Below, one piece after another: positions 9,621 to 33,133 of a stretch of DNA of 33,762 nt (within the stretch, counting starts at the first letter, position 1; the number at the start of each line of letters is the position of its first letter). The notes under the pieces are model-generated. The model was not told the origin of the DNA, made no database searches, and saw only the letters and a list, made by a program, of their open reading frames with translations. The position numbers were made by a program, and so were the translations under genes. The DNA is from Nitrososphaerota archaeon (GTDB lineage Archaea > Thermoproteota > Nitrososphaeria > Nitrososphaerales > Gagatemarchaeaceae): the NCBI GenBank assembly GCA_028866945.1, contig JAGWHE010000011.1, positions 1 to 33,762 of the forward strand. The letters are read 5' to 3'.

Positions 9621-10865
9621 TTGCGCAGAACGGTCGTCCTTGCGTTTTCGGGCGGTCTAGACACCTCGGTATCGGTGAAGTGGCTCGGCGAGAAGTACGA
9701 CGCCGACGTCGTCACCGTCACCCTCGACCTCGGGCAGCGTGACGACCTCAAGGAGGTTGAAAGGCGCTCCCGGCAGATCGGGGCGAAGAACCACTACACC
9801 ATCGACGCCAAGACCGAGTTCCTCAAGGACTACGTGTGGCCCTCCATCATGGCCAACTCCCTCTACGAGGGGAAGTACCCTCTCAGCACGGCCCTGGGGA
9901 GGCCTCTCATCGGCAAGAAGCTGGTCGAGGTGGCAGAGAAGGAGGGGGCAGGCGCCGTGGCCCACGGCTGCACCGGCAAGGGGAACGACCAGGTGAGGAT
10001 CGACGTCACCGTGAGGGCCATGAACCCATCGCTCCAGGTGATCGCACCTGTCCGCGAGTGGAACATGAGCAGGGACGAGGAGATCGCCTACGCCCAGAAG
10101 CGGGGCCTCCCGGTGAAGCCGTCGAAGTCAATCTACAGCGTCGACCAGAACGTCTGGGGGAGGTCGATGGAGAGCGGCCCGCTCGAGAACCCCAACACCG
10201 AGCCCCCGGAGGACGCCTTCGAGTGGACGACCTCCCCGGAGGAGGCGCCCGACGAGCCGGGGTACCTCGACATCGCGTTCCAAGAGGGGGTCCCCACCAA
10301 GGTGAACGGGAGATCCATGGAGCCACTGAAGCTGGTGAGCTACCTGAACGAGTTCGCAGGCTCTCACGGAGTCGGCAGGATCGACCACATCGAGGATAGG
10401 CTGGTCGGGATAAAGTCTCGCGAAGTCTACGAATGCCCGGCCGCAGTCGCGATCATCGAGGCCCACAAGGACCTGGAGAAGCTGGTCCTCACCCGTCACG
10501 AGCTCGCTTTCAAGGCACAGGTCGAGCGTGAGTGGGCTTGGCTGGTCTACTCCGGGCTGTGGCTCGAGCCGCTGCGCACCGCCCTGGACCGCTTCATCTC
10601 CGCGACCCAGCACAGGGTCACCGGGAACGTCAGGCTGAAGCTCTTCAAAGGCTCGGCCAGGGTCGTCGGGAGGTCGTCGGACTACTCGGTCTACGACGTG
10701 GGGCTCGCCACCTACGGCCGCGGGTCGAAGTTCGATCAGAAGAGCGCCATAGGCTTCATTGAGCTCTGGGGGCTCCAGTCGAGGGTCGCCGCCGGTTTGA
10801 GCTCGCAAGTTGAGGGAAAAAGAGAGAATGGACATCCGAGGACCAAGGCTAAAGAAGCAAAGTGA
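9621..10865 (+). CDS. argG: Argininosuccinate synthase
   Basis: A 414-residue enzyme that joins citrulline and aspartate with ATP to give argininosuccinate. The ATP pyrophosphatase loop AFSGGLDTS is at residues 8-16, followed by HGCTGKGNDQVR and the DQNVWGRSMESGPLENP region, all typical. The start is TTG at 9621, about 27-36 bases after the TATA box, implying a short or absent leader. The C-terminal 20 residues are charged and overlap argH by 38 bases, suggesting translational coupling. It opens the arginine/lysine cluster. Confidence 0.95.
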   Translation: MRRTVVLAFSGGLDTSVSVKWLGEKYDADVVTVTLDLGQRDDLKEVERRSRQIGAKNHYTIDAKTEFLKDYVWPSIMANSLYEGKYPLSTALGRPLIGKKLVEVAEKEGAGAVAHGCTGKGNDQVRIDVTVRAMNPSLQVIAPVREWNMSRDEEIAYAQKRGLPVKPSKSIYSVDQNVWGRSMESGPLENPNTEPPEDAFEWTTSPEEAPDEPGYLDIAFQEGVPTKVNGRSMEPLKLVSYLNEFAGSHGVGRIDHIEDRLVGIKSREVYECPAAVAIIEAHKDLEKLVLTRHELAFKAQVEREWAWLVYSGLWLEPLRTALDRFISATQHRVTGNVRLKLFKGSARVVGRSSDYSVYDVGLATYGRGSKFDQKSAIGFIELWGLQSRVAAGLSSQVEGKRENGHPRTKAKEAK

Positions 10866-12303
10866 CGAGGCCCTCGAGTTCACCTCGTCCATGGCGGCGG
10901 ACGGACGCATCGCCCGCCGGGTCATCGAAGTGAACATGGCCCACATGGCTGCGCTCGTGAAGTCGAAGGAGGTGGGCGCGGATACCGGGGCCAAGTGCCT
11001 GAAGTTCCTCGCAAGAGCGTCTTCGAAGATCTCCTCCGACACCAGGTCCGAGGACTTCCACCAGCAGCTCGAGCAGGACGCCGTCGACTCCCTCGGGGTC
11101 GAGACCGCAGGCTTCCTGAACTACGGCAAGAGCAGGAACGACCAAGTCGCCACAGCGATACGCATGGAGCTGAGGTCTGCCATCATCGGATTCGTCGAAG
11201 CCATAGCGGGCCTGCAGCGTGCCCTGCTCAAGCAGGCCGCCAGACAGGGCGGCACCATGCTGCCGGGGTACACCCATCTCCAGCGCGCCCAGCCCGTCAC
11301 CCTGGCGCACCACTTCCTGGCCCACTTCGACGCTCTCCAGAGAGACGCCGACAGGGCCCTCCAGCTCTACGACCGGGTGAACCTCTCGCCCATGGGCTCG
11401 GCGGCCATGGCCGGCACATCGGTGAAGATCGACAGGCGCTACGTCGCGGGTCTCCTCGGGTTCTCAGGCTTGGTGAGAAACGCCATGGACGGCGTGTCGT
11501 CCAGAGACGTCGCCGTGGAAGCCCTCTCCTGCATGACAATGGCCATGCTCGACGCCAGCCGCCTGGCGGAGGAGCTGATACTCTGGAGCTCGGCCGAGTT
11601 CGGCTTCATCGAGCTCTCTGACGCCTACGCCGCTTCGAGCAGCATCATGCCTCAGAAGAAGAACGCCGTCGTGGCCGAGATGGTACGTGCCAAGGCCGGC
11701 TCGGTGATTGGCGACCTGGTGGCCGCCTGCGCCATCCTGAAGGCACTCCCCTACTCGTACAACCTGGACCTGCAGGAGGTGACTCCTCACCTCTGGCGCG
11801 CGGTCGACGACGCGACCACCTCACTGCGCCTCCTCTCCGGCATGGTCGGGTCAGTTTCGATAAGACCGAAGGCGACCAGGTCTGCGGCGGCAGGCGGGAA
11901 CTCCACCGCCGTCGCCCTTGCCAACTATCTTGCGAGCCACGCCGGCGTCTCCTTCCGCCAGGCCCATTCAATCGTGGGGGAGTTGGTGAGGATCTCGGAG
12001 AAGAGCAGAAAGCCGCTACAGGCGGTCGCCGCCTCCAAGCTCACGGAGGTTTCATCGAAGTTCGGAAGGAAGGTCGAGCTCGACGACGACACCGTCGGGG
12101 GCCTGCTCGATCCGGAGGCGTTCCTCGCGAACATCTTCACCGAGGGCGGCGCCAATCCCAGGCGGATCCAGACTGAGCTGAGTGCCCGCAGGCGGGACCT
12201 GGCCTCCACGGAGTCCTCGCTCTCCGGGCTCGGCTCGTCCCTGAAGACTTCCGAACGGAAACTGAATGCGGTGAGTTCGGGCATGGCCCGGGAGGTGAAC
12301 TAG
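10828..12303 (+). CDS. argH: Argininosuccinate lyase
   Basis: A 491-residue member of the fumarase/aspartase superfamily that splits argininosuccinate to arginine and fumarate. Signature SSIMPQKKN is present, as are KSRNDQVAT and TMLPGYTHLQRAQPV. I take the ATG at 10828; a TTG at 10810 would add six residues (MREKER), which the family does not need. The gene starts inside the end of argG in another frame. The C-terminus continues normally. It is followed 5 bases later by the first lysW. Confidence 0.94.
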   Translation: MDIRGPRLKKQSDEALEFTSSMAADGRIARRVIEVNMAHMAALVKSKEVGADTGAKCLKFLARASSKISSDTRSEDFHQQLEQDAVDSLGVETAGFLNYGKSRNDQVATAIRMELRSAIIGFVEAIAGLQRALLKQAARQGGTMLPGYTHLQRAQPVTLAHHFLAHFDALQRDADRALQLYDRVNLSPMGSAAMAGTSVKIDRRYVAGLLGFSGLVRNAMDGVSSRDVAVEALSCMTMAMLDASRLAEELILWSSAEFGFIELSDAYAASSSIMPQKKNAVVAEMVRAKAGSVIGDLVAACAILKALPYSYNLDLQEVTPHLWRAVDDATTSLRLLSGMVGSVSIRPKATRSAAAGGNSTAVALANYLASHAGVSFRQAHSIVGELVRISEKSRKPLQAVAASKLTEVSSKFGRKVELDDDTVGGLLDPEAFLANIFTEGGANPRRIQTELSARRRDLASTESSLSGLGSSLKTSERKLNAVSSGMAREVN

Positions 12304-12308
12304 TCAGA

Positions 12309-12482
12309 TTGAACACAAGCTGCGCAGAATGCGGAGCCGAGCTGAGCGTTCCCAACGACGCCATAGTGGGGGAGATCGTCTCGTGCAAGGACTGCTCCAC
12401 TGAGTATGAGGTAGCGGAGTTGACGAACGGCAACGTGCTCCTGAAACCAGCCGAGCAGGTCGGCGAGGACTGGGGAGAGTAA
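12309..12482 (+). CDS. lysW: LysW-type amino-group carrier protein, copy 1 (putative ArgW)
   Basis: A 57-residue acidic carrier starting with TTG. It has two zinc knuckles, CAEC and CKDC, and ends in the invariant EDWGE, whose terminal Glu gamma-carboxylate takes up the amino acid. The carrier protects the alpha-amino group of glutamate or 2-aminoadipate during conversion to ornithine or lysine. It directly precedes argX with no gap, and follows argH, so I infer it works in the arginine branch. A second, diverged copy lies 4.4 kb downstream. Confidence 0.93.
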   Translation: MNTSCAECGAELSVPNDAIVGEIVSCKDCSTEYEVAELTNGNVLLKPAEQVGEDWGE

Positions 12483-13334
12483 GTGAAGGTAACCATAACC
12501 TTCGACAGGCTCAGGTGGGAGGAGAAGGCGCTGAGCGACGCCGCCGAGTCGGCTGGGCTAGAGGTGTCTCTGGTCGACGTCAAGGGCCTGGTCTTCGAGG
12601 TCCCGAAGAGGCGCCCGGAGTTCGGTGACGTGGTGCTCCAGCGGTGCATCAGTCACTACAGGTCGTCGCTCCTCACCCAGACCCTGGAGGGGGCAGGGGT
12701 GCACGTGATCAACAACTTCGCGGTGGCCGAGACTTGCAGCAACAAGCTCGCGACGAGCATAGCCCTGGCCAACGCCAAGGTCCCCACTCCGCGCACCTTC
12801 CTTGCGCTGACCTCCGAGGCCGCGGAGGTTGCGGCTGAGAAGCTGGGCTACCCCCTCGTGATGAAGCCGTTCACCGGGAGCTGGGGGCGGATGGTGACCG
12901 TGGTCCGCGACAGGGCGACCCTGCAGTCTCTCATCGAGTTCAAGGAGGAACTGGCGAACCCCCAGGAGCAGCACATGTACTACCTCCAGGAGTATGTCAG
13001 GAGGCCGCCACGCGACATCAGGGCCATCGTGGCGGGAGACAGCATCGTGGCCTGCGTCCACAGGATAGCGCCCAAGGGTGAGTGGAGGACCAATGTGGCG
13101 AGGGGCGCGGTCTCCAAGGCGTTCAAGCCAGACAGCGAGTTGAGGGAGATAATCCTCAGCGCGGCCGAGGCCGTCGGCGGAGGGATCCTCGGGGTGGACG
13201 CCATGGAGCCCGAGTCTGGCTACCTCGTCCACGAGGTCAACAACACTGTGGAGTTCAAGGGGGCCCAGTCCGCGGTCGATGTCGACATCCCGGCCCAGCT
13301 CATCAAGTACGTGGCCCAGTCAGCGAGGCGGTAG
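12483..13334 (+). CDS. argX: LysW ligase, ATP-grasp, probably ArgX (glutamate-LysW ligase)
   Basis: A 283-residue ATP-grasp enzyme that attaches an amino acid to the C-terminal Glu of LysW. Visible are the N-terminal TFDRLRWEEKAL, the ATP-grasp segment VMKPFTGSWGRM, RPPRDIRAIV, and the metal/ATP end VHEVNNTVEFKG. The second ligase in this window ends EFKN-TGVDIPG, like Thermus LysX; this copy reads EFKG-VDVDIPA. That difference and the arginine-gene neighbours make glutamate the likelier substrate. The GTG start immediately follows the lysW stop. LysX or dual specificity is not excluded. Confidence 0.85.
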   Translation: MKVTITFDRLRWEEKALSDAAESAGLEVSLVDVKGLVFEVPKRRPEFGDVVLQRCISHYRSSLLTQTLEGAGVHVINNFAVAETCSNKLATSIALANAKVPTPRTFLALTSEAAEVAAEKLGYPLVMKPFTGSWGRMVTVVRDRATLQSLIEFKEELANPQEQHMYYLQEYVRRPPRDIRAIVAGDSIVACVHRIAPKGEWRTNVARGAVSKAFKPDSELREIILSAAEAVGGGILGVDAMEPESGYLVHEVNNTVEFKGAQSAVDVDIPAQLIKYVAQSARR

Positions 13335-13335
13335 C

Positions 13336-14397
13336 ATGGTAAGAGTGGGGATACTGGCCGCTTCAGGATACATCGGAGGAGAGCTGCTGCGGCTCCTGCT
13401 GCAGCACCCCGAGGCCCAGGTCACCACGGCCACCTCCAGGAAGTACGCCGGGGAGTACGTCTTCCGGGTCCACCCCAACCTCCGCGGCATGACTGAGCTG
13501 AAGTTCTCCGCCAACGACGCCACAAAGGTGATCGCAGACTCGGACGTGGTCTTCGCCGCCCTCCCGCACGGCGAATCGGTCAAGATCGTCCCCCAGATAG
13601 CGGACGCCGGACTCAGGGTCGTCGACCTCAGCGCGGACTTCCGGCTGAGCGACAAGGGGCTCTATCCGAGCTGGTACGGCTACGACCACCCGAGGCCCGA
13701 CCTGCTGGAGAAGTTCGTCTTCTCCATCCCTGAGATCAACAGGGACGAAGTGAGGGGCGCGCGCCTCGTCTCCTCTCCCGGGTGCATGGCGATCACGGCC
13801 ATCCTCGCCCTGGCGCCGCTACTGAAAGAGAAGGCTCTGGGGATTGACAGAGACCACATCGTAGTCGACGCCAAGGTGGGCTCTTCAGGGGCCGGCGGGA
13901 AGCCGTCCCTCTCCACGCACTTCTCCGAGAGGTTCAGCGTCGTCAGACCATACAGCCCGGCCGGGCACAGGCATTCGGCGGAGATCGAGCAGGTTCTCGC
14001 AGCGATGGCCGGAGAGCAGGTCAAGGTCTCCATGTCCGCCCACGCGGTCAACATGGTCAGGGGGATCCTCGTCACGTCTCACCTCTTCATGGCCAACGGC
14101 GCCAAGCCCCTCGACATCTGGAAGGCCTACCGCTCGATGTACGCCGGGAGCTACTTCGTCCGCCTAGTCAGGGACAAGCAGGGACCCTTCAGGCTCCCTG
14201 ACCCGAAGCTGGTGGTGGGATCCAACTTCTGCGACGTCGGGTTCGAAATCGACGAGAGGAACGGGCGCCTGGTCGCGCTCTCCGCCACTGACAACCTGAT
14301 CAAGGGAGCTGCCGGGAACGCGATCCAGTCGATGAACCTGATGATGGGGTTTGACGAGAAGACCGGCCTGGCGATGGCGCCCCTGCACCCGGTGTAA
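13336..14397 (+). CDS. lysY: LysW-glutamyl/aminoadipyl phosphate reductase (ArgC/LysY)
   Basis: A 353-residue NADPH-dependent reductase turning the carrier-bound acyl phosphate into a semialdehyde. The nucleotide loop is GILAASGYIGGELLRLL and the catalytic Cys150 is in SSPGCMA. GSSGAGGKPS and the HRHSAEIEQ His region also match the ArgC family. The ATG at 13336 lies one base after the argX stop; the ATG agrees with the family N-terminus (MVRVGILAASG). Only one copy is present, so it probably serves both arginine and lysine routes. Confidence 0.93.
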   Translation: MVRVGILAASGYIGGELLRLLLQHPEAQVTTATSRKYAGEYVFRVHPNLRGMTELKFSANDATKVIADSDVVFAALPHGESVKIVPQIADAGLRVVDLSADFRLSDKGLYPSWYGYDHPRPDLLEKFVFSIPEINRDEVRGARLVSSPGCMAITAILALAPLLKEKALGIDRDHIVVDAKVGSSGAGGKPSLSTHFSERFSVVRPYSPAGHRHSAEIEQVLAAMAGEQVKVSMSAHAVNMVRGILVTSHLFMANGAKPLDIWKAYRSMYAGSYFVRLVRDKQGPFRLPDPKLVVGSNFCDVGFEIDERNGRLVALSATDNLIKGAAGNAIQSMNLMMGFDEKTGLAMAPLHPV

Positions 14398-14401
14398 TCG
14401 A

Positions 14402-15211
14402 ATGAGGATAGTGGTCAAGATCGGAGGGAGCCTGATGAAGGAGGGGGTCCCAATGGCGCTCATCGAAGACGTCAGGGCTCTCGCGGCTTCACACCAGATC
14501 ATCATCGTCCATGGGGGCGGGGACGTGGTCACCCAATATGCCAACGGCCTCGGCAAGGAACAGCGTTTCGTCGTCTCGCCTGACGGCATCAGGAGCAGGT
14601 ACACGGACATGGAGACAGCCGAGATCTACCAGATGGTCATGAGCGGCCTCCTTGCCAAGCGCCTCGTGTCGGCTCTCACGAAGAGCGGCCTGAAGAGCGT
14701 CTCGCTCTCGGGCGCCGACGGGCAGCTTCTCCAGGGGAAGCGCAAGTCAAAGCTGGTCATCTTGGACGACAGGGGGAGGAAGGTCGCCATCGAAGGGGGG
14801 TATACGGGGAAGGTGGTCGGGGTGAACTTCGCTCTATTGCAGACCCTACTGTCGGAAGGCTACATCCCAGTCATCTCGCCTGTCGCCTCGGGCGAAGGGG
14901 CCGAGCCGCTCAACGTCGACGGAGACCGGGCTGCCTCCTCCGTCGCCTCCGGGGTCAAGGCCGACTGCGTGGTCTTCCTCACGAACGTCGCCGGCTTGAT
15001 GCTCGACGACAACCTCGTCCCGCATCTTACGGCCTCCGAGGCGTCCGCCAAGCTCCCTCACATCGGCTTCGGAATGCAGAAGAAAGTCATCGGAGCAGTG
15101 GATGCGGTGGAAGGCGGGGTGAAGGAAGCGATAATCTGTTCCGGCACCAGGCCGGGGCCCCTGTCACGCGCGTTGTCGCACGACACGTGCACGGTGATCT
15201 GCAACCAATGA
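14402..15211 (+). CDS. lysZ: LysW-glutamate/aminoadipate kinase (ArgB/LysZ)
   Basis: A 269-residue amino acid kinase that phosphorylates the side-chain carboxylate of carrier-bound glutamate or 2-aminoadipate. Motifs VKIGGSL at the N-terminus, VHGGGD for the substrate loop and LNVDGDRAAS near residue 180 are in place. I choose the ATG at 14402, four bases after the lysY stop, since the family starts directly with the first beta-strand. The stop overlaps the lysJ start (ATGA), a sign of coupled translation. Confidence 0.93.
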   Translation: MRIVVKIGGSLMKEGVPMALIEDVRALAASHQIIIVHGGGDVVTQYANGLGKEQRFVVSPDGIRSRYTDMETAEIYQMVMSGLLAKRLVSALTKSGLKSVSLSGADGQLLQGKRKSKLVILDDRGRKVAIEGGYTGKVVGVNFALLQTLLSEGYIPVISPVASGEGAEPLNVDGDRAASSVASGVKADCVVFLTNVAGLMLDDNLVPHLTASEASAKLPHIGFGMQKKVIGAVDAVEGGVKEAIICSGTRPGPLSRALSHDTCTVICNQ

Positions 15212-16395
15212 CCAGCACAGAGGGGCTCGAAGACGCCTACGGCGCCCCCGCTTTCAAGAAGTTCCCCATCGCCCTCGTCAGGGGAAAGGGGTCGCTCGTG
15301 TGGGACTCGGGCGGCAAGGAGTACGTCGACTTCATGAGCGGCATCGGGGTCGCCATCGTCGGCCACTGCAACGACGCGGTAATCGAGGCAGTCAGGGTAC
15401 AGTCGGAGAGGTTGATCACCTGCCACGGCTCCTTCTACAACGACGCCAGGGCCGGATTCATGGAGCGGTTGATGAAGGTCTCCCCCAAGGGCCTGGGCAA
15501 GGCGCTCCTCACCAACACAGGGACAGAGTCGGTCGAGGCGGCCATCAAGCTCGCCAGGCGCCACACGTCAAGGAAGAAGATCGTATCGATGAAGGGGGGC
15601 TTCCACGGCAAGACCTACGGCTCCCTCTCCGCCACCTGGAACAAGAAATACAGAGACCCGTTCGGACCCCTCCTAGAGGGGTTCGACTTCGCAGAGTACG
15701 GAGACCCCGAGTCCCTCGCGCAGCTCGTCGACGGCGACACCGCAGCGGTGATCGCCGAGCCCATCCAGGGGGAGGCAGGGATCATCGTCCCGCCGGCGGA
15801 CTATCTCAGGCAGGTCAGGGAGATCTGCGACCAGAAGGGGGCTCTGCTGATCCTCGATGAAATCCAGTCCGGGCTCGGCCGCACCGGAAGGATGTGGGCG
15901 TCGGGGCACTTCGGGGTCACCCCTGACATAATGACCGTCTCCAAGGGGCTCGGCGGAGGGCTCCCCATCGGTGCAGCCGTGGCCACCGACGAAGTCGCGG
16001 GGAGCCTGAAAGGCGGAGAGCACACCAGCACCTTCGCCGGCAACCCTCTCTCCTGCGCCGCGGGGTCGGCCACCCTAGACTTCATCACTCAGAACGACCT
16101 CCCCTCGAAGGCAAGGGCCAAGGGAGACGCGATGAAGGCTGCCCTGAACAAGATAGCGTCTGCTCACAGGCTGGTGAAGGAAGTGAGGGGGCTGGGGATG
16201 ATGCTTGGGATGCAGACGCGCGTGGACATCCTCTCGCAGCTGCAGTCTGCCCAGGCCAAGGGGGTCATATTCGCATACTCTGGCAGGGACACCTTCAGGT
16301 TCCTCCCTGCGCTGGTGATGGAGGAGACCCAAATATCCAGGGGGATGGAGGTTCTGGAGAGCGTCATTGGCGAAGCGGAAGCGGGCCGATTCTAG
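15208..16395 (+). CDS. lysJ: LysW-glutamate/aminoadipate semialdehyde aminotransferase (ArgD/LysJ)
   Basis: A 395-residue class III PLP aminotransferase. The PLP lysine is Lys246 in TVSKGLGGG; LLILDEIQSGLGRTG and the GTESVEAAIKLAR phosphate-binding stretch are clear. It moves an amino group from glutamate to the carrier-bound semialdehyde, giving LysW-ornithine or LysW-lysine. The ATG at 15208 overlaps the lysZ stop. Its last 29 bases overlap lysM. Confidence 0.93.
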   Translation: MTSTEGLEDAYGAPAFKKFPIALVRGKGSLVWDSGGKEYVDFMSGIGVAIVGHCNDAVIEAVRVQSERLITCHGSFYNDARAGFMERLMKVSPKGLGKALLTNTGTESVEAAIKLARRHTSRKKIVSMKGGFHGKTYGSLSATWNKKYRDPFGPLLEGFDFAEYGDPESLAQLVDGDTAAVIAEPIQGEAGIIVPPADYLRQVREICDQKGALLILDEIQSGLGRTGRMWASGHFGVTPDIMTVSKGLGGGLPIGAAVATDEVAGSLKGGEHTSTFAGNPLSCAAGSATLDFITQNDLPSKARAKGDAMKAALNKIASAHRLVKEVRGLGMMLGMQTRVDILSQLQSAQAKGVIFAYSGRDTFRFLPALVMEETQISRGMEVLESVIGEAEAGRF

Positions 16396-16804
16396 CAAGA
16401 CCGACGACCTGATCATCGGCATCCTGCGCGAGAACTCCAGGACCTCGAATACCGACATGGCTACCAAACTGGGCCTCTCGGAGTCGGCGGTCAGGAGGAG
16501 GATCTCGAACCTCGAGGCGACTGAGCGCATAAGGAAGTACACCGTCGAGGTCGACGATAGGGATCTCAGCAGTGCGATCACCTGGATCTCAGTCGATCCT
16601 GCTACCCCGACGAGACAGGTAAGCGAGAAGATCCGGGGGCTCAAGGGGGTCGAGTCGGTCTACGAGACCGCGGGCCAATTCGACATAGCCGTCGTCGTAA
16701 AAGGTGCGAATATCGGCGAAGTGAATGCTACCATAGAAGGAATGCGGCGCATCCAGGGCATCACAGGGACGAACACAACCATGGTGCTCCGCACAATTCG
16801 CTGA
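16367..16804 (+). CDS. lysM: Lrp/AsnC-family regulator, LysM-like
   Basis: A 145-residue regulator with an N-terminal helix-turn-helix (about residues 12-58, with TNTDMATKLGLSESAVRRRI-type spacing) and a C-terminal RAM ligand domain (about 65-142). In Sulfolobus the LysM member of this family controls the lysine genes and responds to lysine. Here it sits between the shared enzymes and lysW2-lysX-lysK, so the same role is likely. The start is TTG at 16367, inside lysJ; no better start exists. The ligand is inferred from context only. Confidence 0.87.
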   Translation: MAKRKRADSSKTDDLIIGILRENSRTSNTDMATKLGLSESAVRRRISNLEATERIRKYTVEVDDRDLSSAITWISVDPATPTRQVSEKIRGLKGVESVYETAGQFDIAVVVKGANIGEVNATIEGMRRIQGITGTNTTMVLRTIR

Positions 16805-16805
16805 T

Positions 16806-16817
16806 TTCGGCCGAGAA
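16806..16817. promoter_or_regulatory. Candidate operator upstream of lysW2
   Basis: TTTCGGCCGAGA is a 12-base dyad with one mismatched pair, placed right after the lysM stop and beside a weak TATA-like CGTTAAGA (16819-16826). ATG of lysW2 is 40 bases on. It is a candidate site for LysM or another Lrp protein; a chance palindrome is possible at this GC content. Confidence 0.3.
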
Positions 16818-16865
16818 TCGTTAAGACGGTTGGCTCCGTAACGCCTGTCGAGGAACGGGAGTAAC

Positions 16866-17036
16866 ATGAACTGTCTTGAGTGCGACGCCCAAGTCCCGGT
16901 GCCATCGGACGCCATCCAGGGCGAGATTGTGACCTGCAAGGACTGCGGCACTTCTTTCGAACTGGTGCGGGAGCAGGCAGGGAGCCTCTTCACTCTCCGG
17001 CAAGCCGAGCTGGAGGGAGAGGACTGGGGCGAGTGA
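16866..17036 (+). CDS. lysW: LysW-type amino-group carrier protein, copy 2
   Basis: A 56-residue acidic carrier with two zinc knuckles (CLEC, CKDC) and the C-terminal EDWGE that accepts the substrate. It differs from copy 1 at many positions, especially in the middle and before the tail (RQAELEGEDWGE versus KPAEQVGEDWGE), so it is not a recent duplicate. Its TGA overlaps the GTG of lysX, and lysK follows, which points to the lysine branch. The ATG at 16866 matches the usual start just before the first Cys. Confidence 0.93.
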   Translation: MNCLECDAQVPVPSDAIQGEIVTCKDCGTSFELVREQAGSLFTLRQAELEGEDWGE

Positions 17037-17892
17037 GCGGACGCACTCTTTTTCGCTTCTTTACGACACCATACGCTGGGAAGAGAAGGCAATCGTAGCC
17101 GCGGCGGAGAAGCGAGGCGTGCGCGCCGACCTCGTGGACTCCAAGGACTTCGCCATCGACCTCAGCTCGCGCGGGCCCTCGCTACCTGACCACGTGGTGC
17201 TTCAGAGGTGCGTGAGCTACTTCCGCAACGTCCACACTACCGCGGCACTCGAAGCGGCAGGCCACAGAATCGTCAACTGTTTCGCATGCGCGTGGACCTG
17301 CGGCAACAAGCTCTTCGGGACCCTCGAGCTCGAGAAGCACAGCATCCCGACTCCCCGCACCCTACTATCGCTGTCTGAAGACTCGGCCCTGAAGTCGGTC
17401 GAAGAGGTGGGGTACCCCGCGGTCCTAAAGCCCGTCGTCGGGAGCTGGGGACGAATGTCCGCCCTCCTGAAGGACAGGGACGCCGCCAGGGCAGTCATCG
17501 AAGACAGGGAGTACATGTTCCCCCTCTACCAGGTCTACTACGTCCAGCAGTTCGTGAAGCGCCCCCCTCGAGACATCAGGACCTTCGTCATCGGAAACGA
17601 GACGGTGGCCGCCATCTACAGATACTCCGGTAGCACGGAGTGGCGGACCAACACCGCCCGGGGAGGGCGGGCCGAACCATGCAAGGTCACCCCCGAACTC
17701 AACGAGCTCTCCCTCAGGGCAGCCAGGGCGATGGGGGGCGAGTTCGTCGGGGTCGACCTGATGGAAGGACCAGGCGGGCTCGTGGTCCACGAGGTCAACA
17801 ATACCACAGAGTTCAAGAACACCGTCCCGGCCACCGGCGTAGACATACCCGGAATGATCGTCGACTACCTGGTCTCCATCCAGAAGAGATGA
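17033..17892 (+). CDS. lysX: 2-aminoadipate-LysW ligase LysX, with apparent one-base frame break near its start
   Basis: An ATP-grasp ligase of about 286 residues with RWEEKAI, VLKPVVGSWGRM, RPPRDIRTFV and the C-terminal VHEVNNTTEFKN-TGVDIPG, close to Thermus LysX. The open frame has no ATG, GTG or TTG before 17119, which would cut off the conserved LLYDTIRWEEKAI segment. A GTG at 17033, overlapping the lysW2 stop, begins a frame that reads into the T5 run at 17049-17053. One more T, or a -1 slip at TTT, would join it exactly to the LysX frame as MSGRTLFSLLYDTIRWEEK. Otherwise that frame stops at 17096. A sequencing error in the T run is the simplest cause; programmed frameshifting is the interesting one. 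The rest of the gene is intact. Confidence 0.85.
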
Positions 17893-18995
17893 CCACAACC
17901 GCGAACGATTCTGTCAGGCTCCTCGTCGAGTCCCTGGCCATCTACTCCCCCACGACCAAGGAGACAGAGTTCGCGTCCTTCCTCGCCGACAAGCTGAAGT
18001 CGCTTGGCTATTCGAAGGTCCACCTTGACAGGGCTGGCAACGTCATCGGGGATGTGGGGAAAGGGCGGACGCGCCTCCTCCTGTGTGGCCACATGGACAC
18101 GGTCCCGGGCCGGCTGCCGGTCAGGAAGACCAAGGAGGCGGTCTATGGAAGGGGGGCGGCAGACGCCAAGTCACCGCTCTGTGCTCTGCTGGTCGCCGGG
18201 GCCGAAGCCGCAGACTCGGGCGTCAGGATCACCTTCGCGGGCGTCACCGAAGAAGAAGGAGATGGCGCCGGCATCGAGCAGCTCATCAAGAGCGGCCAGA
18301 AGTTCGACTATGCGGTTTTCGGCGAGCCGAGCGGGGCGGACCGCCTGACCATAGGTTACCGCGGGAGGGTGAGCCTTCACCTGACGGTGCGCACCCAGGG
18401 CGGCCACGCGGGGTCTCCCTGGGCCCACAGAAGCGCCTTCGACGAGTTCACCTCGGTGATGGCAAAACTGAGGGCGTACGAACGTTCGAAGGCGGTGGAG
18501 GGTGATTACTTCAGGTCGCTCTCCCTTTCTCCGACTCTGGTAAGGGCAGGCTCATACCAGAACGTCGTCCCCGGGTTGTGCGAAGCGACCCTCGACCTCC
18601 GCCTGCCGCCTTCGATCAAATCGTCTGCAGCCGTCCGGCAGATCCGCGCCATCGCCGAAGCCCCTGGAGACGGCGTCGAGGTCAGGCTTACAGCCGGCGC
18701 ACCAACCGAGGCCTACGAGGCTGACCCAGGTTCCACGCTTGTCAGGGCCTTTCAGAGGGCAATAATCCTCAGCCTAAAGGCCAGGCCCAGGCTGGTAAGG
18801 AAGACGGGCACCGGAGACATGAACACCTTCGCCCGCAGGGAGGGAGCCGACTGCTTAACCTACGGCCCCGCCCCGTCGGCCTCCAGCCACACCGACGGCG
18901 AGATGGTCGAGATCAGAGACTACCTGGGGAGCATCGAGGTGGTGAAAGAAGCCGTGAGTCAGCTGGCCGCCATCGGTCCGCGGGGGACCGGCTAG
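17889..18995 (+). CDS. lysK: LysW-lysine/ornithine hydrolase LysK
   Basis: A 368-residue M20-family metallopeptidase that releases lysine or ornithine from LysW. Metal-site marks are CGHMDTV (Cys66-Val72, with His68 and Asp70), GRGAADAKSP and the TEEEGDGAG Glu pair. The ATG at 17889 overlaps the lysX stop (ATGA). It is the only copy here and likely serves both branches. Its end overlaps the converging dtdA by 4 bases. I see no signal peptide. Confidence 0.92.
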   Translation: MTTTANDSVRLLVESLAIYSPTTKETEFASFLADKLKSLGYSKVHLDRAGNVIGDVGKGRTRLLLCGHMDTVPGRLPVRKTKEAVYGRGAADAKSPLCALLVAGAEAADSGVRITFAGVTEEEGDGAGIEQLIKSGQKFDYAVFGEPSGADRLTIGYRGRVSLHLTVRTQGGHAGSPWAHRSAFDEFTSVMAKLRAYERSKAVEGDYFRSLSLSPTLVRAGSYQNVVPGLCEATLDLRLPPSIKSSAAVRQIRAIAEAPGDGVEVRLTAGAPTEAYEADPGSTLVRAFQRAIILSLKARPRLVRKTGTGDMNTFARREGADCLTYGPAPSASSHTDGEMVEIRDYLGSIEVVKEAVSQLAAIGPRGTG

Positions 18996-32194: not shown

Positions 32195-33133
32195 GTGCAA
32201 GCCCGGGAATTGAGGAGCATACTTTCGGTCGCAGACCTTTCGTCACCCGAGATGGCGTCGCTGATCGAGCGCTCGGGGGCCCTGAAGAAGCAAATCCGCT
32301 CCGGCAGGCCACCGCCCGCACTTCGCGGGAAGGTCGTCGGCCTCCTCTTCGAGAAGCCCTCGACCAGGACCCGGACCAGCTTCGAGGTCGCGACCATTAG
32401 GCTGGGCGGGGACCCGGTCTACCTGTCTGCGAGCGAGCTGCAGCTGACCAGGGGAGAACCGGTGAAGGACACGGCGAGGATACTCGGAGGATATCTTGAC
32501 GTGATAGTGGGGAGGGTCTACTCACAGGAGACGCTGACGCAGCTCGCGAAGCACTCTGGGAGGCCCGTGGTGAACGCGCTCAGCGACGCCGAACACCCTA
32601 CGCAGATAATCTCAGACCTGTTCACCATAAAGGAGGCCAAAGGGCACCTGGAGGGCCTGACCACGGTGTTCGTCGGGGACGGCAACAACGTCAGCAATTC
32701 ACTCCTCCTCGGAGGCGCGCTCACCGGGATGAACGTGACCGTCGCCTGCCCGGAAGGCTACGAGCCGGACCAAGACATCTTCAGGAAGGCGAAGTCGCTG
32801 GCGGCGAAGTCGGGAGCCGAGCTCGAGGTGGTCAGAGATCCGAAGGGCGCTGTGGCGGAAGCAGACGTGGTGTACACCGACGTTTGGGTCAGCATGGGGG
32901 ACGAGTCCGAGAAGGAGAAGAGGATGGCCGCCTTCAGGGACTACCAGGTGGGCTCGACCCTGATGAAGGCAGCGCCCAAGGGCGCCATCGTGATGCACTG
33001 CCTGCCGGCTCACAGGGGACTAGAGATAACCGACGATATCCTTGAGGGGAGGCAGTCTGTCGCCTGGCGGCAGGGGGAAAACAAGCTGTATGGGGCCGCC
33101 GCCTCGCTCGAGTTCGTTAGCAAGAAGCAGTAA
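32195..33133 (+). CDS. argF: Ornithine carbamoyltransferase
   Basis: A 312-residue enzyme that makes citrulline from ornithine and carbamoyl phosphate. Signatures are STRTRTSFE at residues 56-64 for carbamoyl phosphate, HPTQIISDL in the middle, and HCLPAHRGLE near residue 270 for ornithine. The start is GTG at 32195. It supplies the step between LysK release of ornithine and ArgG, though it lies 13 kb from the cluster. I see no clear promoter just upstream. Confidence 0.95.
   Translation: MQARELRSILSVADLSSPEMASLIERSGALKKQIRSGRPPPALRGKVVGLLFEKPSTRTRTSFEVATIRLGGDPVYLSASELQLTRGEPVKDTARILGGYLDVIVGRVYSQETLTQLAKHSGRPVVNALSDAEHPTQIISDLFTIKEAKGHLEGLTTVFVGDGNNVSNSLLLGGALTGMNVTVACPEGYEPDQDIFRKAKSLAAKSGAELEVVRDPKGAVAEADVVYTDVWVSMGDESEKEKRMAAFRDYQVGSTLMKAAPKGAIVMHCLPAHRGLEITDDILEGRQSVAWRQGENKLYGAAASLEFVSKKQ

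Follow-up and report, generated by a model that had tools for sequence, protein, structure and literature searches.

Two LysW carriers, each beside its own ATP-grasp ligase, around one probably shared arginine/lysine enzyme set in a Nitrososphaerota archaeon and its relatives

The stretch of DNA considered here (33,762 nucleotides, referred to as the window) lies within contig C19 of the genome of a Nitrososphaerota archaeon of the Gagatemarchaeaceae, a relative of the ammonia oxidisers (G000; 1.27 Mb, 92% complete), and contains, on the plus strand, the gene order argG, argH, lysW1, argX, lysY, lysZ, lysJ, lysM, lysW2, lysX, lysK. Two genes for the carrier protein LysW, each adjoining a gene for an ATP-grasp ligase, flank one copy each of lysY, lysZ, lysJ and lysM, with a single lysK behind them, and both the model matches and the coordinates (Table 1) bear out this arrangement, which had been described in an initial annotation of the DNA. 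lysW1 and lysW2 are the sole PF21344 matches returned by the LysW search of G000, and the lysK search of the same genome returned lysK itself as the single match. Likewise, LysY, LysZ and LysJ have one match each in all 35 two-carrier loci and LysK has one in 34 of them, locus L112 stopping short of lysK, and we infer that a single LysZ/LysY/LysJ/LysK set acts on both products. We consider it probable that this one shared carrier-dependent enzyme set is fed by lysW1-argX for arginine and by lysW2-lysX for lysine, and that the second carrier goes back to a single old duplication.

The two carriers of the window exceed the cut-offs of NCBI's LysW model NF041070 and of PF21344, and both miss that of the other LysW model, TIGR01206 (44.1 and 21.1 against 53.2). 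They are 56% identical to each other and share the CxxC/CxxC motifs and the EDWGE end, whose last Glu is the predicted amino acid acceptor in both, yet they differ at several columns including some near the tail, as had been noticed at the outset. One difference that separates them lies at the residue two positions past the last Cys-Gly (Cys-Ser in LysW1 of the window), which is Glu32 in LysW1 and Ser30 in LysW2. Across 33 loci that hold both pairs and belong to the order Nitrososphaerales, this diagnostic column reads Asp 24, Glu 7, Asn 1 and Leu 1 in the ArgX-paired carriers (W1) and Ser 29, Ala 3 and Thr 1 in the LysX-paired ones (W2), that is, acidic in 31 of 33 W1 and Ser, Ala or Thr in 33 of 33 W2, with zero overlap. 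Other columns that differ strongly between W1 and W2 are Val versus Glu or Gln, Val versus Phe and, ahead of the tail, Glu versus Gln. Among the solved LysW chains, alignment places Glu at the diagnostic column in the Thermococcus protein (5k2m) and in 3wwl (which we take to be the Thermus protein), and Gln in the Sulfolobus tokodaii chain 3vpb, so it is probably W2 that is the altered copy.

A tree of 126 carrier sequences, which is built on 56 columns and hence weak in its finer branches, unites 35 of the 36 order-level LysX-partnered carriers in a single group without ArgX-partnered members (98 in the Shimodaira-Hasegawa-like approximate likelihood-ratio test), and one clade for all 36 is compatible with the data (approximately unbiased test, p-AU 0.415). 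Beyond the order, LysX-adjacent carriers of families f44 and f54 (L165, L183, L170) fall outside the W2 group and lack the diagnostic Ser; two-pair arrangements there comprise L165:8247-10945 and L170:1-7288, both divergent, and L183:3925-15397, one ligase of L170 being cut by a contig end. Placing all 44 LysX-partnered carriers in a single clade agrees with the data as well (p-AU 0.144), and the two-carrier state may have arisen more than once.

The two ligases of the window are 45% identical, both exceed TIGR02144 and both contain GSWGR. They differ at the signature, as the initial annotation had stated, ArgX reading NNTVEFKGA and LysX NNTTEFKNT, so that LysX has the Asn-Thr signature of the aminoadipate type and ArgX has Gly-Ala rather than Gly-Phe, the second residue being Ala or Leu across the ArgX proteins of the order. 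The closest match to LysX of the window in the PDB is 3vpd, presumably from Thermus thermophilus. With the ArgX and LysX labels taken from the signature residue, a tree of 129 ligase sequences made by a quick method requires 2 changes of label, as compared to about 41.6 in shuffles, and the ArgX/LysX split is therefore old. According to the excerpted text of PMC10433800, exchange of the Asn-Thr of Sulfolobus LysX for the Gly-Phe of ArgX shifts the preference from aminoadipate to glutamate. The substrates predicted here from the signatures are taken from this literature; Gly followed by Ala, as in ArgX of the window, is a variant.

Table 1. Genes of arginine and lysine synthesis in the window, with the model matches that identify them
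Feature	Position	Strand	Match
argG, argininosuccinate synthase	9621..10865	+	TIGR00032 530.8 bits, cut-off 268.2
argH, argininosuccinate lyase, start uncertain	10810..12303	+	TIGR00838 449.3 bits, cut-off 279.5
lysW1, ArgX-paired carrier; Glu residue 32, EDWGE end	12309..12482	+	NF041070 85.8 bits (cut-off 75); PF21344 45.2 bits (cut-off 27)
argX, Gly-type ATP-grasp ligase, predicted glutamate; GTG immediately after lysW1 stop	12483..13334	+	TIGR02144 290.8 bits (cut-off 275.6); EFKGA signature
lysY (argC-like) reductase, shared	13336..14397	+	TIGR01850 405.3 bits
lysZ, [LysW]-aminoadipate/[LysW]-glutamate kinase, shared	14402..15211	+	NF010662 273 bits, cut-off 194
lysJ aminotransferase, shared	15208..16395	+	TIGR00707 427.8 bits, cut-off 410.05
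lysM-like Lrp/AsnC regulator	16367..16804	+	NF040947 141.7 bits, below cut-off 180
lysW2, LysX-paired carrier; Ser residue 30, EDWGE end	16866..17036	+	NF041070 76.3 bits (cut-off 75); PF21344 40.6 bits (cut-off 27)
lysX, Asn-Thr-type ATP-grasp ligase, predicted 2-aminoadipate; probable ACG start	17041..17892	+	TIGR02144 328.3 bits (cut-off 275.6)
lysK, [LysW]-lysine/ornithine hydrolase; overlaps lysX stop	17889..18995	+	TIGR01902 251.4 bits (cut-off 163.1); NF003367 266.7, below cut-off 363
argF, ornithine carbamoyltransferase, arginine branch	32195..33133	+	TIGR00658 391.5 bits, cut-off 280.85

Elsewhere in G000, a second lysW1-argX-lysY-lysZ run of identical order and different sequence opens contig C34 (L194, G000:C34:1-2456); its cut-off carrier was missed by the LysW search. 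A strain mixture, contamination and a second copy are the candidates for its origin.

The start of lysX deserves separate mention. There is no in-frame ATG, GTG or TTG ahead of the conserved RWEEK motif in the window, and the start is most likely the ACG at 17041, 4 nt past the lysW2 stop, rather than the GTG at 17119 chosen by the open reading frame caller. In 17 genomes of family f1, one of which (L101) was assigned to the family by the tree alone, the codon 33 nt upstream of the Arg of RWEEK is ACG in 14 and ACC, GCG and TTG in one each, and the ACG lies 1-4 nt after the lysW2 stop. Fifteen of the 17 have no in-frame ATG, GTG or TTG between the lysW2 stop and RWEEK, L221 and L222 having a TTG, and in-frame starts further upstream, within lysW2, occur in L213, L215, L221 and L222. 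Of the Thr codons found at this site 14 of 15 are ACG, as compared to 27.5% in genes (1.6e-07 in a naive binomial test that ignores kinship). A frameshift or another lesion was rejected as an explanation, because relatives share both the absence of a start codon and the conserved ACG at one site. Our literature search on ACG start codons in archaea returned a single paper, which concerned neurons.

How widespread are the two carriers? Of 397 genomes sampled from the phylum, 89 belong to the order (the window genome and a genus mate included, and most of them in family f10); a hand count that takes in some weak third matches finds at least two LysW matches in 84 of the 89 and one in the other 5. 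Leaving weak extra matches out of the count, 32 of 61 relatives ranging from genus to order level have two carriers, and all 32 have LysX. Of the 17 genomes that have one carrier and lack LysX, 16 have that carrier directly next to ArgX, the 17th (G058) being without a ligase match. Among 65 fetched loci with both ligase types a carrier stands beside each ligase in 41, beside ArgX only in 15, beside LysX only in 6 and beside neither in 3. Loci at contig ends are among those of the last three groups, and some genomes enter the count twice.

Gene order in one-carrier relatives points to how the second carrier came in. L057, L072, L074, L090 and L153 read argG argH W argX lysY lysZ lysJ lysM lysS lysX lysK, the lysS label being given by position and length to a protein that matches isopropylmalate and homocitrate synthase models below their cut-offs. 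We take these loci to lie outside the order, though L072 is labelled Nitrososphaerales; those present in the ligase tree group with L153, a class-level relative. Most two-carrier loci drawn outside f1 have this same order with lysW2 inserted between lysS and lysX, the exceptions being L145, with lysW2 ahead of lysS; in L134 and in the loci of f1 there is no lysS at this place. The pair has also been lost and moved: lysM-lysW2-lysX is missing in L036, L152 and L151 while lysW1-argX and lysK stay, L033 retaining lysM, and intact pairs lie about 150 kb apart in G037 (f2) and on different contigs in G057 (f8), as opposed to the contiguous pairs of L088 (Nitrososphaeraceae). Judged against these relatives, the pairing of carrier and ligase seems to be old, and the genes seem to have been inherited, lost and moved as pairs.

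Partial distance correlations over the 33 loci, in which lysY, lysZ and lysJ together served as the kinship control and the permutation p-values leave some kinship in, give 0.27 (p 0.0005) for W1 and ArgX, 0.08 (p 0.19) for W1 and LysX, -0.01 for W2 and ArgX, and 0.45 for ArgX and LysX. They support the W1-ArgX half of the pairing only.

Taken together, we favour a scheme in which LysW1 would receive glutamate from ArgX, and LysW2 2-aminoadipate from LysX, in each case on the C-terminal Glu of the carrier. Both loaded carriers would then be processed by LysZ, LysY, LysJ and LysK, with ornithine or lysine as the released product. One duplication into the slot ahead of lysX, near the base of the order, would have given rise to the second carrier; the acidic residue after its last CxxC would have changed to Ser, and from then on this carrier would have shared the inheritance, moves and losses of LysX. 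We infer the single origin, the substrates of the ligases (from the signature motif) and the preference of each ligase for loading its own carrier. Could the two carriers instead be interchangeable? According to this main rival explanation, which we regard as unlikely, the copy next to lysX is kept so that each ligase gets its carrier from its own message and in a suitable proportion, by translational coupling or dosage, and the residue differences reflect drift or a fit to other partners. The immediate adjacency of carrier and ligase genes in each of the two pairs would be accounted for in this way, and so would the apparent need of lysX for coupled initiation, given an ACG a few nucleotides past the lysW2 stop. 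The same explanation draws on genomes and loci (G043, G046 and 15 one-carrier loci) that combine both ligases with one carrier. G043 (99% complete) has, like three genus mates, one LysW; this is a W2 beside LysX, and its ArgX is without a carrier. G046 (89% complete) has its one LysW next to ArgX, and its lysS leads directly into lysX without a lysW2. Separate carriers are hence not strictly required, as the two ligases occur with only W2 in G043 and with only W1 in G046, and a single carrier can evidently serve both ligases in some members, provided that both ligases work there. These two genomes weigh against separate entries for arginine and lysine, as do the synthase search taken up below and three further results. 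The partial correlation of W2 and LysX, which the rival explanation would readily accommodate, is not significant (0.08, p 0.14; 0.10, p 0.10 when ArgX is controlled for too); the LysX-partnered carrier of L144 sits just outside the W2 group; and ligase residues whose divergence is confined to two-carrier genomes, striking at first, were dropped as evidence, because they do not clearly exceed the reverse counts and the sub-clade controls. Between two-carrier and one-carrier genomes 10 ligase columns diverged, with 4 in reverse; by sub-clade the counts are 14 and 6 in f1, 15 and 13 in the ammonia-oxidising archaea (AOA) and 3 and 6 in the others, and between two-carrier sub-clades 15 and 9, 11 and 4, and 14 and 10. 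Drift alone, on the other hand, would hardly preserve the separating residue in W1 as well as in W2 throughout 33 of 33 loci from several families, and interchangeable carriers would not lead one to expect that W1 tracks ArgX and not LysX. Judged from these comparisons, the specialisation of the carriers proposed in the initial annotation is plausible and partly supported: the trees, the separating residue and co-inheritance speak for an old, partner-specific pairing, whereas the W2-LysX correlation, the ligase residues, and G043 and G046 do not. The comparison of trees and of neighbouring genes which it recommended is accordingly divided, the ArgX/LysX split, the W2 group and the W1-ArgX correlation being on its side and the W2-LysX correlation failing it. 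A recent lineage-specific copy without pairing, one of the outcomes named there as speaking against it, was sought and not found.

The lysine half of the scheme raises the question of supply. In the window genus, lysW2-lysX may no longer serve de novo lysine synthesis and may instead use scavenged 2-aminoadipate, serve another amino acid or be decaying, which we think unlikely. It is suggested by the search for the homocitrate/isopropylmalate synthase family, which was positive in 14 of 14 controls and returned no match in 20 of 31 genus members, including the window genome G000 and the complete genome of its genus mate G004. The other 11 of the 31 do match the family, always below the cut-off and in part as mere fragments; an intact lysX reading frame is present in 11 of the 31, and the EFKNT of the window is normal, all of which counts against this reading. 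Counts of genes of the isocitrate dehydrogenase family were dropped, as such counts do not distinguish homoisocitrate dehydrogenase from its relatives. Genus mates that have a strong LysA and no lysX again point away from de novo synthesis by this route. LysA is over the cut-off in 13 of the 61 relatives (weaker relatives of LysA below it, present in many members of the order, being excluded), and LysX is found in 0 of these 13 as compared to 36 of the 48 others (Fisher p 7.9e-07, a naive value that ignores kinship, with 12 of the 13 in one genus, maybe only two events and several genomes incomplete). The LysA-positive genomes are those of genus g1 (G003, G005, G007, G008, G012, G015 and others) and G049. 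DapB is over the cut-off in 1 of the 13, namely G049, which makes the diaminopimelate pathway likely in this genome alone among them; since DapB is over the cut-off only there, LysA in the others may use scavenged diaminopimelate.

A further peculiarity concerns the end of the carriers in ammonia oxidisers. We found the pattern EDWGQ-stop in 99 of the 397 genomes, namely in 85 of the 86 sampled from families f2, f8 and f10 and in 14 from elsewhere; the stop of the pattern also permits TGG, individual matches are not confirmed as LysW, and a reversed control pattern gave 2 matches. Named loci of these families in our trees belong to Nitrosocaldus, Nitrososphaeraceae, Nitrosopumilaceae and Nitrosotalea. 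In the fetched f2 and f10 loci the Gln-ended carrier (GEDWGQ) is W2 (for example L113:7656-7829, L117:15772-15945, L124 and L128), in L088 and in G057 (f8) both carriers end in Gln, and the terminal Gln codon before the stop is CAG or CAA in 29 fetched carriers. A search for a ligase column that tracks Gln- versus Glu-ended carriers did not show compensation: most of the best columns are also seen in f3, a family with Glu-ended carriers, and the highest-ranking column not shared with f3, LysX position 277, has the state usually seen in ArgX where the carrier ends in Glu. We found no mention of EDWGQ in the literature searched. One might combine all this into a bolder reading for the order, which as a whole appears to us quite unlikely. 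Two mutually exclusive carriers would sort arginine and lysine intermediates within one enzyme set by means of the single diagnostic residue, the lysine carrier of AOA (in some members both carriers) would have exchanged the acceptor Glu for Gln, so that attachment would have to proceed through a different group or after deamidation, and lysX of f1 would be made only by coupled translation from ACG. The deamidation of Pup is a precedent for such a step from Gln to Glu. Gln-ended carriers, if functional, would question the accepted chemistry of attachment in very abundant archaea.

As a variant of the LysW pathway, the two-carrier arrangement is real, old and widespread. The making of arginine and lysine on LysW is well known as an example of two pathways with common, promiscuous enzymes, and a carrier that is duplicated while the enzymes are still shared indicates how pathways could be insulated without copying every enzyme. 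The genomes with one carrier, with two, with W1 lost and with W2 lost moreover form a natural series for the study of carrier recognition. No title on two LysW carriers stood among the literature matches listed.

How does the window compare with the systems already described? In Sulfolobus acidocaldarius, according to the excerpted text of PMC10433800 describing Ouchi et al. 2013, ArgX and LysX act with a common LysW: there as here Gly-type and Asn-Thr ligases with GSWGR feed one enzyme set by way of an EDWGE tail, but instead of one common carrier the window has two, one beside each ligase and with a conserved residue difference between them. Thermus thermophilus shares the Asn-type LysX and LysW; there, as the same excerpt has it, LysW serves lysine only and arginine is made by the classical route. 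LysX-LysW of Thermococcus kodakarensis (5k2m) resembles the window in that one enzyme set yields lysine and ornithine on a carrier (PMC10433800, in excerpt), and differs in having a bifunctional single ligase and a single carrier for both products. The haloarchaeal ArgW-ArgX of Natrinema gari J7-2 is an arginine carrier system, in which ArgW E54A causes arginine auxotrophy (excerpted text of PMC10433800); lysine is made there by the diaminopimelate route, so that there is no lysine carrier. Finally, in the ammonia oxidiser Nitrosopumilus maritimus SCM1 the LysW Nmar_1287 adjoins the ArgX Nmar_1288, and the metabolic model, in the excerpted text of PMC6038301, names one LysW, whereas most genomes of the order searched here have two.

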